Part shown: piece after piece, positions 1 to 18,416 of the stretch
How positions within the stretch are numbered: position 1 is the stretch's first letter
Layout of the letters: every line of letters begins with the position of its first letter
Origin: a virus
DNA length: 22,463 nucleotides
Reading direction: 5' to 3' (one strand)
Virus record (IMG/VR): IMGVR_UViG_3300047318_000318
Span: 1-22,463 of that record
The notes under the pieces: model-generated
What the model was told of the DNA's origin: nothing
Databases searched by the model: none
Seen by the model: the letters and a program-made list of their open reading frames with translations, nothing else
Made by a program: the position numbers and the translations under genes

Positions 1-627
1 CTGTTCACGCGTCAGCATGACCAGCTCAGTGCGGCGCATTGCCGTGTCGGCCGCAAGTTCGATAATGATCGGCAGCTCTCTATTAATCGCCCCGGCCGCC
101 TCATATATCTTTTTGAGTTCGTTGGTAGTCGGGCGGCGGTCCCGCTCTTGGCTACCCTTCGGCAATCTAATATTAGTGCAGGGATTGACCAGCCCGGCCA
201 TATGCCACTCTTTCGCCGCGATGGTGTAGAGGTGGCTGATGATTGCAAGTTCCAGGCGAATAGTTGCGGAGGATACTTTCTCCTTACTCCTGGCGTCCCG
301 ATACTCGGCAAGGTCAGACGATGTAATAGCGGAGAGGTTTTTCTCAGCGAGGGGATGAAGTAACCAGCGCGCGATTCTAGTCGCCTCTTGCTTCTTGCCC
401 TTTTTGTGTTCGCTGATTTCGGTCAAGTATCTATTGAGCGCTTTGGTCAACGTAGTGCGATCAGCCTCCCGGCCATCGACAAAACGTGAGCGGGACATAT
501 CGCCTTCTAGCTCCGTCGCCCAGCGTTGCGCCTCGGCCTTCGTGTCGAAGGTAGCGGTGAGGGTTGGGTAGCCTTTGCGCCGGATCAGTGCCCGCCAAGC
601 GGTGCCGCGTTTTTGATAGGTAGCCAT
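1..627 (-). CDS. int: Tyrosine-family integrase, N-terminal 209 residues (cut by window edge)
   Basis: This is a phage site-specific recombinase that would join attP to a host tRNA-Ser gene. The frame runs open from an ATG at 627 to the first base of the window, so the C-terminal catalytic half is missing. Residues 1-50 (ATYQKRGTAWRALIRRKG, then FDTKAEAQRWA) look like an AP2-like arm-binding domain. Residues about 58-150 look like the SAM-like core-binding domain. The segment ADTAMRRTELVML (193-205) matches the box carrying the first catalytic Arg, probably R198, with Ala where Gly is usual (TGMRRGE). No strong ribosome binding site precedes the ATG. An inverted repeat and an attP arm lie just upstream. 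The gene reads away from the tRNA fragment, which is common for tRNA-targeting integrases. The family call is firm, although the catalytic R-H-R-Y set cannot be checked in full. Confidence 0.93.
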   Translation of the reverse strand, partial: MATYQKRGTAWRALIRRKGYPTLTATFDTKAEAQRWATELEGDMSRSRFVDGREADRTTLTKALNRYLTEISEHKKGKKQEATRIARWLLHPLAEKNLSAITSSDLAEYRDARSKEKVSSATIRLELAIISHLYTIAAKEWHMAGLVNPCTNIRLPKGSQERDRRPTTNELKKIYEAAGAINRELPIIIELAADTAMRRTELVMLTREQ

Positions 628-1020: not shown

Positions 1021-1049
1021 TTGACGCCTCCGCCGATGGACGGTACACA
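1021..1049 (+). promoter_or_regulatory. Weak candidate promoter for the plus-strand operon
   Basis: TTGACG (1021-1026, 5/6 match to a -35 box) is followed 17 nt later by TACACA (1044-1049, a poor -10 match). It lies 72 nt upstream of the first gene of the operon and overlaps a TGTACC-like site. It is offered only because no better candidate is visible. Confidence 0.25.
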
Positions 1050-1120: not shown

Positions 1121-1795
1121 ATGGCTTTAAATTCAAGTTTAGGGTTTGCCCAGTTCGCCCACCGTGAACACCTGCTCCATGATTTTCTGTCCACCGCTGA
1201 GCCACCACCTGCACCGCCCACACTTCAAGAGCTGCGAGCACAGCGCAAAGCGAAGAAGAGACAACTTCGAGAGTTGCAGTCACTCAGCCCCGATCAAATA
1301 GAATTCAACACCCCAGCGATATCGCGCCAGACCGAAGACCTCAGGACACTTGAGGAACAAATGCGCGAAGCACTTGGGATAGATAAGCCGGCCCCGCAAG
1401 AGCGGCCGGAATTATTGCTTGCGTCTTTCGAGTTCCAATCAAGACCCTCAGTCACACCGCCGCCGCCCGGTATTGAACAGGCCAGCGAAACAGCCAAGCG
1501 GCAAGCCGCACTTGAGAAAGAGCTGCGCGCTACTCTTGGTGTTCCTGCCCCCGCCATCGAACCCCCACATAGACCGTCCGGCCCCCGCACTTTTGTGAAG
1601 CGTCGCCAGGAGATAATGCTCCAGGTTCGCCGCCGCGATGGTTCGGAAATACCGTTCTTTCACCTGGACACCTGCAACAGTTCTCTAGAGGCGGAAATCA
1701 ACGCGGCCAAGAAGGCGCGCAGCTTTGGCCTGACAGTTTTGAAGACCATCAGCGCCACCATTAAAGAAGTTGAATGCACAGTGGGAGCGGCCTAG
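1121..1795 (+). CDS. Hypothetical protein, 224 aa, charged and proline-rich
   Basis: I do not recognise this protein. The ATG is preceded by AGGAG with a 7-nt gap, a strong site that fixes the start. Residues 25-50 are rich in Arg, Lys and Leu (LRAQRKAKKRQLREL) and probably helical. Two similar blocks follow: LEEQMREALGIDKPAPQ and LEKELRATLGVPAPAIE, each a short helix ending in a LG(I/V) turn and a proline stretch, which suggests an internal duplication. Residues about 155-224 form a compact-looking end (QEIMLQVRRRDGSEIPFF ... EINAAKKARSFGLTVLKTISATIKEVECTV). No signal peptide or membrane segment is seen. It is the first gene of an operon with three small paralogues and an MvaT-like protein, next to attP and opposite in strand to the late genes, so expression in the lysogen is plausible. 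Confidence 0.75.
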   Translation: MALNSSLGFAQFAHREHLLHDFLSTAEPPPAPPTLQELRAQRKAKKRQLRELQSLSPDQIEFNTPAISRQTEDLRTLEEQMREALGIDKPAPQERPELLLASFEFQSRPSVTPPPPGIEQASETAKRQAALEKELRATLGVPAPAIEPPHRPSGPRTFVKRRQEIMLQVRRRDGSEIPFFHLDTCNSSLEAEINAAKKARSFGLTVLKTISATIKEVECTVGAA

Positions 1796-1996
1796 ATGAA
1801 CAGGGACCACGCATACCTCTATGTGATCCGGCAGCACATCGAATTGTTGGCCGAGGACGAGCGAATCAAAGTCATGCGGCTGGTCGATCGGTTGCAAGCG
1901 TCGGTTGATGCGGCGGGCGATAAGGCCGTCGCATCGATGGCACTCACTTTAGTGTGTGCGAGAAACTTGATTGACATTACGAGCGGGGAGGAATGA
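1796..1996 (+). CDS. Small hypothetical protein, 66 aa (tandem paralogue 1)
   Basis: The ATG directly follows the TAG of the upstream gene, with GGGAG 8 nt before it. The protein is mostly helical in appearance: YLYVIRQHIELLAEDERIKVMRLVDRLQASVDAAGDKAVASMALTLVCARNLI in overlapping pieces (HIELLAEDER, LQASVDAAGD, ALTLVCARNLI). The same pattern of an IELL helix, charged turn, V/I-D-x-AG-(D/N) turn and A-x-x-LV-x-A helix recurs in the next gene and, more loosely, in the one after. I do not know the family. The stop overlaps the next start (ATGATGA), so translation is probably coupled. A small regulatory or adaptor protein acting in the cytoplasm is possible, but nothing shows it. Confidence 0.7.
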   Translation: MNRDHAYLYVIRQHIELLAEDERIKVMRLVDRLQASVDAAGDKAVASMALTLVCARNLIDITSGEE

Positions 1997-2196
1997 TGAC
2001 GCGAAACGAATTCAAGCTCCAGCGCTTGTTAGGCGACATCGAATTGCTAGAGCAACCCAGGCGCGCATTCGTTGAGAGACATGCGGATTCAATCCGCAAA
2101 ATGATAAATGATGCTGGCAATGACCGGCATCTTGTGTTTGTCGCGCTGGCACTTGTCAGCGCTGAACAGATGGTCAGCTATGGCGGGACACAATGA
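1993..2196 (+). CDS. Small hypothetical protein, 67 aa (tandem paralogue 2)
   Basis: Two adjacent ATG codons (1993 and 1996) can start this gene. GGAGG ends 1 nt before the first and 4 nt before the second, so the second may be the one used. The protein follows the layout of its left neighbour: GDIELLEQPRR against QHIELLAEDER, RKMINDAGND against QASVDAAGDK, and ALALVSAEQMV against ALTLVCARNLI. The stop overlaps the next start again through ATGATGA. No family is recognised and no membrane segment is seen. The conserved layout and repeated junction sequence suggest it arose by tandem duplication. Confidence 0.7.
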   Translation: MMTRNEFKLQRLLGDIELLEQPRRAFVERHADSIRKMINDAGNDRHLVFVALALVSAEQMVSYGGTQ

Positions 2197-2426
2197 TGAG
2201 TACAGAGGCGCAGAACCTAGCCCTGGATAAAATAATTAGCCACTTCGCATGGCTAACAATGGAGCAGCGCGACGAGGTGAAGGACCTATTGCAACAGATT
2301 GATGACGTAATCCATTCAGCGAGCGACGTGAGTGTCGCGGCGGCGGTGCTCCGAATTATCGGCGCGATCACTGTTGCCTCTTCGACTCACCCAAAATTGG
2401 CTGACAAATCCAAACAATCCAACTAA
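2193..2426 (+). CDS. Small hypothetical protein, 77 aa (tandem paralogue 3, divergent)
   Basis: The gene starts within the same ATGATGA junction motif as its predecessor, with GGGA shortly upstream. The sequence is the most divergent of the three but keeps the plan: ISHFAWLTMEQRDEV, then IDDVIHSASDV, then a small-residue hydrophobic helix (VAAAVLRIIGAITVAS, residues about 48-63). That last helix could sit at a membrane but is short and more likely packs inside a helical bundle. The tail (THPKLADKSKQSN) has no counterpart in the other two. Function is unknown. The MvaT-like gene follows after a 27-nt gap. Confidence 0.65.
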   Translation: MMSTEAQNLALDKIISHFAWLTMEQRDEVKDLLQQIDDVIHSASDVSVAAAVLRIIGAITVASSTHPKLADKSKQSN

Positions 2427-2453
2427 ACCAAACCCAACAGGGACGGCACCACT

Positions 2454-2906
2454 ATGGCAACAATCGCTGACTTCAAGGCCGCTGAGCGCGCGCTGGCAAT
2501 TCAATTCACCGCCTTCGAAGAAATGAAACAGAACCCGGAACTTAGGAAGTTGCTAGAGCTTGATGCTGCGCTTGAGGCATTTTGTATTGAGCATAAGACT
2601 TCGCGTGCGGCGCTCTATGAATTGCTGGCCCTGGACATCGAGCCGCAAAAGAAGCAGGTCAAGAAACCGGCAGCCACTCCCGCCAAGCCGGCAGCATCAA
2701 AGCCAGCATCGAAGCCAGCCGGCAAGCAGGCGGCTCCTATTATGAAAATACGGGTTTTCGCAAACCCGCATACCGGCGAAGAGCTAACCGTGCGTGGCAA
2801 TCGCGACGGCAAGTTCAATCAATGGAACGCAGAGTATGGCGCTGATGTGGTCCGGTCCTGGAAAATTCGTGAATACGACGCGCCACCGAAAACCAAAGCC
2901 GCCTAA
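2454..2906 (+). CDS. MvaT/H-NS-like nucleoid protein, 150 aa
   Basis: Three parts are visible. Residues 5-65 form a charged amphipathic helical region (ADFKAAERALAIQF ... ALYELLALDIEPQKK), as in the oligomerisation domain of MvaT and H-NS. Residues 66-95 are a Lys/Ala/Pro linker. Residues 98-138 resemble the MvaT DNA-binding end: NPHTGE (104-109), RGN (114-116), W124, then AEYGADVVRSW. In MvaT a Gly-Asn pair in the loop enters the minor groove of AT-rich DNA; the G115-N116 pair fits this. The known role of the family is silencing of AT-rich foreign genes. A phage copy may protect lysogeny, silence other phages, or modify host MvaT filaments by mixed oligomers. It is the last gene of its operon and ends just before a bidirectional terminator. 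Length is slightly above the roughly 120 residues of MvaT because of the linker. The fold call is good; the role is inferred. Confidence 0.8.
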   Translation: MATIADFKAAERALAIQFTAFEEMKQNPELRKLLELDAALEAFCIEHKTSRAALYELLALDIEPQKKQVKKPAATPAKPAASKPASKPAGKQAAPIMKIRVFANPHTGEELTVRGNRDGKFNQWNAEYGADVVRSWKIREYDAPPKTKAA

Positions 2907-2909
2907 AAA

Positions 2910-2940
2910 TAAACCCGGTCTTGTGCCGGGTTTATTGTTT
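2910..2940. terminator. Bidirectional terminator between converging operons
   Basis: TAAACCCGG and CCGGGTTTA form a perfect 9-bp stem around a 7-nt loop (2910-2934). T-rich sequence follows on both strands: TTGTTT on the plus side and TTTTTA on the minus side. It lies 4 nt after the MvaT-like gene and below the last tail gene, so it can end both transcripts. Confidence 0.85.
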
Positions 2941-13325: not shown

Positions 13326-13362
13326 ATCCGTGACGGTTGGGGGGTTTTGGCGTGGCTGTGTT

Positions 13363-13391
13363 TTGTTGGGCGAAAACTTTTGTTATATGAT
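13363..13391 (+). promoter_or_regulatory. Putative moron promoter (sigma-70 type)
   Basis: TTGTTG (13363-13368) and TATGAT (13386-13391, 5/6) are spaced 17 nt apart, 36 nt upstream of the methyltransferase-like ORF. The region is more AT-rich than its surroundings. An own promoter is expected for a gene pair inserted against the direction of the late operon. Confidence 0.5.
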
Positions 13392-13427
13392 TGCCGGCCT
13401 ACCATCGCCGCCAATACAGGTCCAGTT

Positions 13428-14102
13428 ATGAACCCTTCGATTCTGAGAGTCAGCCAGGGCGCACAAAACACACTCGACGCCGATGCCCTGGACAACGGTG
13501 TTCTGCGCGTGGTGCCGATGGACTATTACGCGCAGTTCTCACAAACCGACCTGTCCGGCTTTTGCCTGCGTCACGGCCTGTATTGTCTGCCCACGGTTGA
13601 GTTGCTCGATAAGATCAACGAGTTGATTCTAGAGGCGAGCCCGACCCGATCCGCTATTGAGATCGGCAGCGGCAACGGTGTACTCGGCAAGGCGCTCGGC
13701 ATTCCCTGCACCGATAGCCATATGCAAGAAGACCCGGCCGTGATTGCCCTGTATCGAACGATGGGCCAGCCGGTTATCACCTATGGCCCGCACGTCGAAC
13801 GCCTGGACGCCGAGGCAGCGGTTGCCCGGTACAAGCCAGAGGTGGTGGTCGCCGCGTGGGTCACGCACAAATACAACGAAGCCGAACACCATCGGGCCGG
13901 CAACGTGTACGGCGTGGACGAGGTGGCGCTACTCGGCCAAATCAAACGATACATTCTTGTCGGCAACCTTTCAGTTCACCAACACAAACCACTGTTAGTC
14001 CTGCCCTACATCGTCCACGAGAGCGACGCGATTTTTTCTCGCTCGCTCAAGCCAGAGGGTAACGGCGTGGTCGTGTGGGATAACCCGGAGTGGAAACCAT
14101 GA
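13428..14102 (+). CDS. SAM-dependent methyltransferase-like protein, 224 aa (moron)
   Basis: The ATG at 13428 follows AGG with a 7-nt gap. Upstream in-frame codons run into the promoter and terminator and are not likely used. Residues 75-90 (SAIEIGSGNGVLGKAL) match motif I of class I methyltransferases, with the E-x-GxGxG signature. CTDSHMQ (94-100) may supply the acidic motif II position (D96), and PEVVVAAWVTHKYN (137-150) fits the motif IV strand. The later strands RYILVGNLSVH and GVVVWDNPEW complete a Rossmann-like order. The substrate is unknown. No DNA-methyltransferase DPPY or NPPY box is seen, so a DNA target is not favoured. The gene stands alone with its partner on the plus strand inside the minus-strand late operon and ends overlapping its partner as ATGA, the pattern of a moron expressed in the lysogen. 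Confidence 0.75.
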   Translation: MNPSILRVSQGAQNTLDADALDNGVLRVVPMDYYAQFSQTDLSGFCLRHGLYCLPTVELLDKINELILEASPTRSAIEIGSGNGVLGKALGIPCTDSHMQEDPAVIALYRTMGQPVITYGPHVERLDAEAAVARYKPEVVVAAWVTHKYNEAEHHRAGNVYGVDEVALLGQIKRYILVGNLSVHQHKPLLVLPYIVHESDAIFSRSLKPEGNGVVVWDNPEWKP

Positions 14103-14437
14103 ACAAAGATAAGCGGCCGAACTCAGTCGGGCTCGGGATATCCGAGGAAGACGTAATAGAAATGGGCTACCAATACGCGCGCCAGCTAGACGACGGCACA
14201 TGGTTGGCGGTCGCAAAAATGTTCACCAACGGCCGGCTCTATTTCAATCTGGACTACCACGGGTCTGAGTGTTGCTACTGCTATAAGTCCGTGGCCGAGG
14301 CGGTCGCGGCCATGATGGCATTCGATCCAGCGCGCGACGAGGAACCGCAAGGCTGGCACAAAGACCCGGTGAACAATCGCATTCGCCCCAATGGTGATGC
14401 CTCTAAGGAAACCATCGGTTATCCGCCCGTGACCTAA
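14099..14437 (+). CDS. Hypothetical protein, 112 aa (moron partner)
   Basis: I do not recognise this protein. It starts at ATG 14099 inside the stop of the methyltransferase-like gene (ATGA), with GGAG 8 nt upstream, so translation is coupled and the two probably act together. Residues about 28-60 look like a small beta sheet with a Cys cluster (GTWLAVAKMFTNGRLYFNLD, then ECCYCY at about 58-63). A helix follows (SVAEAVAAMMAFD). The C-terminal 35 residues (GWHKDPVNNRIRPNG) look loop-like. A metal site through the Cys cluster is possible. The stop overlaps the stop of the DUF3168 gene on the other strand by a few bases, leaving no room for a separate terminator. Confidence 0.65.
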   Translation: MNKDKRPNSVGLGISEEDVIEMGYQYARQLDDGTWLAVAKMFTNGRLYFNLDYHGSECCYCYKSVAEAVAAMMAFDPARDEEPQGWHKDPVNNRIRPNGDASKETIGYPPVT

Positions 14438-17708: not shown

Positions 17709-18416
17709 CTATGGCGCGATGGTTTCGAGCAGCGACAACCGGCGCTCAAGAGCGGCGCGGTCGAACACTGGTTCAGTTTCAGGGGGGTCAGTCAGAGCGG
17801 CGGGCGCATTGCCGTAGGCCGCCAAATTCCATTGGTTGCGTGCGGCCTTCTGGCCCGCTGCGATCCGGTCGACAAAGCCATTGGCTACCGCTTCCTCAGC
17901 GGTGAACCAAGTCGTGGCCGCCATCATGGCCGCCAGCTCATCGGCCGGCTTGCCGGTCTTGCGCTGGTAATCGGCAACGATACTGGCGTCCACTTTGCGC
18001 AGCAGCTCGGCGGTTTGTACGAACTCGTCCGCGTTGCCAATGCCGATTGTCCAGGCGTTGTGAATCATAAAAAAACCGCCCTCGGCAATCTCCACCTCAT
18101 CGGCCGCCAGGGCGACGTAGGTCGCAGCGCTGGCCGCTTGGCCGTCGATGTGGGCGATGACACGGGCCGGATGTTGGGCCAGCGCGGTCGCGATGGTGCG
18201 GCCGTCGAACACATCGCCACCGGGCGAGTTGATGCGAAGGTGAATTACGTCCACGTCCAGGGCCACCAGTTGCGGGACAAAATCCCGCGCACCGACACCA
18301 CCCCAGTCGCCGCCAATAATGTCGTAAATGTAGACGGTCGCCTCGCGGCCGGCCTGCTCAATACGGGCCGAACGTGGGGCCGCTTGATTGCTTAGGAAGA
18401 GCTGCATCAGCTTCAT
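17709..18416 (-). CDS. ClpP-type prohead protease, 235 aa
   Basis: A serine protease of the ClpP/S14 class that matures the capsid. The start at 18416 overlaps the portal stop as TAATG, with AGGGG 8 nt upstream. A longer in-frame start at 18635 lies inside the portal gene and is not credible. The catalytic Ser is S96 in GQAASAATYVALAADEVEI (read GQAASAATY) and the His is H119 in FFMIHNAW. The SPGGDVFDG loop (64-72) forms the oxyanion region. The S-to-H distance of 23 matches ClpP (25). The third residue of the triad cannot be assigned: AATTWFTAEEAVANGFVD has no acidic residue at the usual distance. The C-terminal 40 residues (NAPAALTDPPETEPVFDRAALERRLSLLE in part) are a flexible or coiled addition. 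Confidence 0.92.
   Translation of the reverse strand: MKLMQLFLSNQAAPRSARIEQAGREATVYIYDIIGGDWGGVGARDFVPQLVALDVDVIHLRINSPGGDVFDGRTIATALAQHPARVIAHIDGQAASAATYVALAADEVEIAEGGFFMIHNAWTIGIGNADEFVQTAELLRKVDASIVADYQRKTGKPADELAAMMAATTWFTAEEAVANGFVDRIAAGQKAARNQWNLAAYGNAPAALTDPPETEPVFDRAALERRLSLLETIAP

Follow-up and report, generated by a model that had tools for sequence, protein, structure and literature searches.

The operon described here raises the question what five closely spaced genes beside the attachment site of a Pseudomonas phage do, and whether they act together. The window, i.e. the whole stretch of DNA analysed, is a 22.5-kb viral contig from a Pseudomonas phage, its integrase and terminase having their nearest matches in Pseudomonas phages of the PAJU2 group. 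A sequence-only reading had described a five-gene operon at 1121-2906 between attP and the tail genes and had suggested one joint system, possibly for superinfection exclusion or anti-phage regulation. We confirm the operon as described and at these coordinates; of the proposed function the regulation part survives, the exclusion or defence part being without support. Our preferred reading, which we regard as quite possible though short of probable, is that the operon serves the prophage carrying it as a silencing (chromatin) module.

The operon adjoins an integration region with the following features:

1-627, minus strand: tyrosine integrase, N-terminal 209 aa, cut by the window start (PHROG integrase, E 1.8e-33)
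682-703, no strand: attP arm-type repeat CCGATGTACCAAATTTGTACCA, copy 1, a 22-nt direct repeat kept with changes in relatives
749-774, no strand: attP core, identical to the 3' end of tRNA-Ser(CGA), the same 26 bases being present in prophage loci
912-933, no strand: attP arm-type repeat, copy 2, identical to copy 1 at 682

The integrase shares 67% DNA identity with that of Tr60_Ab31 and 66% with that of PAJU2, and many Pseudomonas genomes hold relatives of it. The attP named in the sequence-only reading was borne out: the 3' end of tRNA-Ser(CGA) lies between the two identical 22-nt repeats, its 26 bases are identical in the Pseudomonas prophage loci L053, L057, L075 and L079, and tRNA-Ser(CGA) stands at the integration place of related Pseudomonas prophages in all six loci scanned, including L057. 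An Rfam match at 752-803 (plastid UTR family) stays below the gathering score and was rejected as a by-product of the tRNA-Ser-like core. Two related contigs, L018 and L019, carry another tRNA-like attP core (GTGCCCCGAGGGAGACTCGAACTCCC) with the operon unchanged; since a different core lies beside the same operon, the integration site has been exchanged in these phages.

Downstream of attP, five plus-strand ORFs run towards the convergent minus-strand tail genes:

1021-1049, plus strand: probable operon promoter, TTGACG-N17-TACACA, with a TTGAC and TA.ACA core
1121-1795, plus strand: gene A, 224 aa, helical N-terminal half, fused member of the K family (see below)
1796-1996, plus strand: gene B, 66 aa, small helical paralogue
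1993-2196, plus strand: gene C, 67 aa, small helical paralogue
2193-2426, plus strand: gene D, 77 aa, small helical paralogue
2454-2906, plus strand: gene E, 150 aa, divergent MvaT-family protein (Pfam MvaT_DBD match)
2908-2936, plus strand: intrinsic terminator, hairpin and T-run

Gene B begins directly after the stop of A, and C and D each overlap the preceding gene by 4 nt. The promoter implied near 1021 by the earlier reading does not pass a simple sigma-70 consensus scan, but all 11 aligned relatives, among them some whose A proteins are only about 53% identical, retain its TTGAC-N17-TAcACA core; the closing terminator, also proposed earlier, is kept in nine of ten. All five genes show dN clearly below dS in nearly all sufficiently diverged pairs, i.e. 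purifying selection. The GC content is 54.4% in the operon and 49.3% in the AT-rich attP region compared to 60.5% in the late genes. The reading as cargo next to attP, expressed as an operon from a conserved promoter and closed by a conserved terminator, is supported, and the nearest named phages have a conversion-type gene in this slot (see below). A role as lysogenic conversion cargo would suit the position and the separate promoter. Elsewhere in the window, at 13347-14437, two plus-strand ORFs of 251 and 115 aa lie within the minus-strand tail module as a possible second cargo insertion; neither has a match in Pfam.

The protein encoded by gene E is built of N-terminal oligomerisation helices, an Ala/Pro/Lys linker and a C-terminal DNA-binding domain, and reaches 31.6 bits against Pfam MvaT_DBD (PF22055; cut-off 27), a threshold passed in 10 of 14 related contigs. 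The E family profile matches the MvaT DNA-binding structure 2mxe (E 2e-8) and, at positions 1-59, the MvaT oligomerisation structures 5b52 (E 4.5e-7) and 8h8h (E 6e-7). Against the MvaT/MvaU equivalogue model NCBIfam NF041859 it scores 59.7 bits, below the cut-off of 75. In the ungapped alignment with 2mxe at the AT-pincer R-G-N, Met97 of E stands at Arg80 and the Gly-Asn lies one position off; Arg100 of E is invariant and occupies the position of Lys83 (MvaT numbering). The score below the equivalogue cut-off and the one AT-pincer residue not conserved at the aligned place make E a divergent family member and not an MvaT/MvaU orthologue, and they leave its DNA preference uncertain, the position aligned without gaps to Arg80 holding no Arg. 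The relatives in contigs L013 and L021 have another type of DNA-binding domain and fall below the Pfam cut-off. Among 50,697 phage records, a good MvaT-like match was found in only two unannotated faecal contigs. The faecal 'Bacteriophage sp.' MT835634.1 encodes at 17774-18133 an MvaT-like protein 73% identical to the copy of an integrative element described below; this record may not be a phage.

In the product of gene A, the first of the operon, the unit (L)E-x-x-(M/L)-R-x-(A/T)-LG(I/V) occurs twice, accompanied by proline-rich linkers and a C-terminal domain predicted as beta-beta-alpha-beta (residues 156-221, block pLDDT 84-95 over most). The internal helix-LG(I/V)-proline duplication seen in the sequence-only reading is real, its copies being LEEQMREALGIDKP and LEKELRATLGVPAP; in the relatives from L020 and L021 the first unit has ALF in place of ALG. 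A profile search found gene A in 14 IMG/VR contigs, all of the same phage group, and no deep homologues in the 50,697 phage records or in genome_contigs. The fold search with the C-terminal domain returned Z scores up to 6.8, the bulk of the list being domains of ribosomal chains; this range may mean only a common arrangement and is therefore not evidence of function.

In Pseudomonas genomes the A profile gave only weak C-terminal matches, and these led to a family of about 115-aa Pseudomonas proteins, here called the K family, with an N-terminal E-x-x-M-R-x-A-L helix, a proline-rich/basic linker and, at the C-terminus, a domain alignable with the predicted beta-beta-alpha-beta domain of A. 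No Pfam or NCBIfam model covers this family. Profile-profile comparison of A and K (A1 vs A4) gave E 4e-8 at a probability of 95%, and the E-x-x-M-R-x-A-L motif alone (A6 vs A4) gave E 9e-7, the best of the column-shuffled controls (n=60, run with A5) reaching a probability of 3.3%. A thus shares with K the motif helix, the linker and the C-terminal domain; it differs from the stand-alone K proteins, which have one motif and mostly occur alone, in being twice as long at 224 aa, in having two motif units and in an extra helical N-terminus. As judged from these alignments, A is a fused or expanded relative of the K family. In three near-complete phage contigs, gene A is the sole match of the K-family profile.

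The K family is widely distributed in Pseudomonas, being present in 89 of 249 sampled species with up to five matches per genome, and on 34 plasmids. Its genes occur in mixed contexts, i.e. on plasmids, on chromosomes and in one integrative element. In the lineage of this element, a K gene and an mvaT-like gene share a strand, K lying upstream at a distance of about 70 bp, and the gene order is relaxase-like, K, mvaT-like, ArdC-like (flanking genes named by eye); genome G075 has two copies and G310 has one. The element-type loci are L154, L158 and G310:C1:2236234-2237185, two copies in one Pseudomonas genome being 91% identical. K and MvaT-family genes are at most 5 kb apart in 6 of 73 cases compared to 0.5 expected (33 genomes), an enrichment that is only suggestive because both families reside on islands and plasmids and the comparison is confounded. 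Outside phages the K-MvaT pair comes from the one element lineage, K genes elsewhere being mostly solitary, and no K gene adjoins the mvaT-like genes of L200-L207, which are related to the integrative-element copy. A 180-kb Pseudomonas plasmid (NZ_CP139142.1; G049:C2) has four genes of the K family along with five MvaT-like matches, and on the Pseudomonas plasmids L195, L191 and L197 a K gene lies near a tyrosine recombinase gene and toxin-antitoxin genes.

The three small proteins were described earlier as paralogues, and this holds with a qualification: the relatedness of B to C and of B to D exceeds that of 5,000 shuffled decoys, and C and D are related only via single-gene variants, the single-copy variants matching all three groups. 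Their number varies from none (L021) through one (L018, L019, L020, L028) and three (the window and most others) to four (L016, profile-checked). No relatives were found in the phage records at useful E-values or in 348 Pseudomonas genomes, the latter being a weak result from a set without positive control. A fold search with a small-protein model (pLDDT 71) gave no match, and the PHROG families phrog_9105/9106 were rejected as weak (E about 0.002) and having no function attached.

A comparison of the locus across relatives shows which genes belong together. The pairing set comprises 13 contigs with an E relative, one E being cut by the contig end; the fourteenth contig with A ends inside A. 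E follows A in every related contig with sufficient downstream flank, and L021 keeps both without any small gene. Independent loss and gain, which the sequence-only reading had named as refuting a joint system, is seen for B-D only and not for A and E, so that the joint system proposed earlier stands for the pair and is weakened for the small genes. The pair itself is mosaic. Between the window and L014, the identity of the A proteins drops from 89% in the N-terminal part to 51% in the C-terminal domain, and the DNA-binding domain of E occurs as two types, L013 and L021 sharing 67% there compared to 53% in the N-terminal part. As read from these identities, the C-terminal domain of A and the DNA-binding domain of E are exchanged as modules. 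We considered whether the type of C-terminal domain in A goes with the type of DNA-binding domain in E; this proved inconsistent, L013 and L021 being the exceptions. With zero to four small paralogues and exchanged domains, the locus is therefore a fixed A-E pair with exchangeable parts and not a set of five fixed genes.

The silencer being always paired with a K-family protein, the operon probably helps the dormant phage to control silenced DNA and is not a known defence system. We suggest a model according to which the promoter beside attP would drive transcription of the operon in the lysogen. E would oligomerise via its N-terminal helices and use its C-terminal domain to bind AT-rich DNA. 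Both on host islands and at the prophage end that holds int, attP and the operon, itself AT-rich, it would build filaments or bridges, perhaps together with host MvaT/MvaU. A would act as an obligate partner, presumably in physical contact with E; its repeated E-x-x-M-R-x-A-L helices may bind a common ligand, i.e. E, host MvaT or another transcription component, and its C-terminal domain may bind DNA or the DNA-binding region of E. The small proteins, predicted as three-helix paralogues, could be add-on modulators of assembly, resembling Hha in its action with H-NS in role and not in ancestry. The net outcome would be stable lysogeny at low fitness cost. There are precedents for this: host MvaT/MvaU repress prophage Pf4 via repression of xisF4 (PMC7379572), the phage protein CgpS of the Lsr2 type silences its own prophage CGP3 (PMC7074111), and phage Lsr2 genes show a temperate bias (PMC8612146). 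Genes resembling a helix-turn-helix repressor and Cro, as judged by eye, are present separately in a related phage contig, so that a role of the operon as the lysis-lysogeny switch is unlikely.

The main rival to this silencing model is counter-silencing: host MvaT/MvaU would be bound by A, by the small proteins or by both, E would mimic MvaT or compete with it, and phage promoters would thereby be freed once the phage has entered the cell. LUZ24 gp4 (Mip) provides the example, binding MvaT residues 1-80 and blocking DNA binding (PMC4635203). In the window, B and D are small and acidic (pI 5.2 and 5.4; E has a pI of 9.4), and variable copy number and domain swapping are what an arms race against variable host silencers might produce. 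Such an activity needs no complete MvaT-like protein with a DNA-binding domain, however, and the operon lies away from the early genes under its own promoter beside attP, so that we regard counter-silencing as unlikely. Slightly less likely still is the absence of any joint function, the five being unrelated accessory genes that share a promoter and a terminator. The mosaic make-up, the coming and going of the small genes and the mostly solitary K genes elsewhere agree with it, but A and E stay paired in all informative contigs despite A being only about 53% identical, and the integrative element holds a separate K-mvaT pair.

We consider a superinfection exclusion or anti-phage defence operon very unlikely. 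Its position beside attP and opposite to the late genes and its make-up as a small multigene operon would suit such a role, and an O-antigen acetylase gene, which is of the conversion type, occupies this slot in the nearest named phages, PAJU2 and Tr60_Ab31. None of the five proteins matches a PADLOC model at E values up to 1, E is a DNA-binding protein of the silencer type, and the A family extends to plasmids, chromosomes and the integrative element in mixed contexts, all of which argues against defence. An anti-defence locus (e.g. anti-CRISPR-like), in which the small paralogues would inhibit host defence and E or A would be an autoregulator, draws on 65-80-aa proteins of variable number and no known fold in a Pseudomonas phage, but is highly improbable given that no HTH anti-CRISPR-associated gene was seen, that the small copies are mutually related where anti-CRISPR-type loci usually mix unrelated inhibitors, and that L021 keeps A and E without small genes.

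Returning to the silencing module, several known systems resemble it in part. Pmr of plasmid pCAR1 and other mobile-element MvaT/MvaU homologues are likewise MvaT-family proteins on mobile elements, expected to mix with host MvaT-like proteins (PMC6936261, PMC7074111); E differs from Pmr in being encoded on a tailed phage, in its strong divergence below the equivalogue cut-off and in sharing an operon with A and small paralogues. CgpS of CGP3, mycobacteriophage Lsr2 and H-NS of EPV1 are phage-borne xenogeneic silencers in a temperate context as well, whereas E is of the MvaT family and is co-encoded with a putative obligate partner, A; the phage section of a 2020 review holds no MvaT case (PMC7074111). 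LUZ24 gp4 (Mip) and other phage inhibitors of H-NS-type proteins also act on the MvaT system (PMC4635203), but Mip-type proteins inhibit host MvaT and here the phage itself encodes an MvaT-like protein. Hha/YmoA are, like B-D, small all-helical proteins encoded with an H-NS-type silencer, a likeness that would be one of role only, B-D showing no sequence match to Hha and none of 23 small-protein members matching the Pfam Hha/YmoA family. Phage H-NS and Lsr2 silencers being known, an MvaT-type phage silencer with dedicated partners appears new.

A bolder reading, which we hold to be doubtful, sees in A and the K family, with their short E-x-x-M-R-x-A-L helix and beta-beta-alpha-beta domain, a new class of proteins dedicated to partnering MvaT-type silencers. 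This class would extend over phages, integrative elements, plasmids and chromosomes of Pseudomonas, and mobile DNA would steer host chromatin by means of it, the small paralogues lending specificity as exchangeable subunits. The A-E pair and the variable small proteins are short enough for direct testing. The phage operon is tied to an unnamed family found in about a third of the sampled Pseudomonas species, often in multiple copies and on plasmids, and the K family thereby gains a first role open to testing, that of partnering or modulating MvaT-type chromatin.
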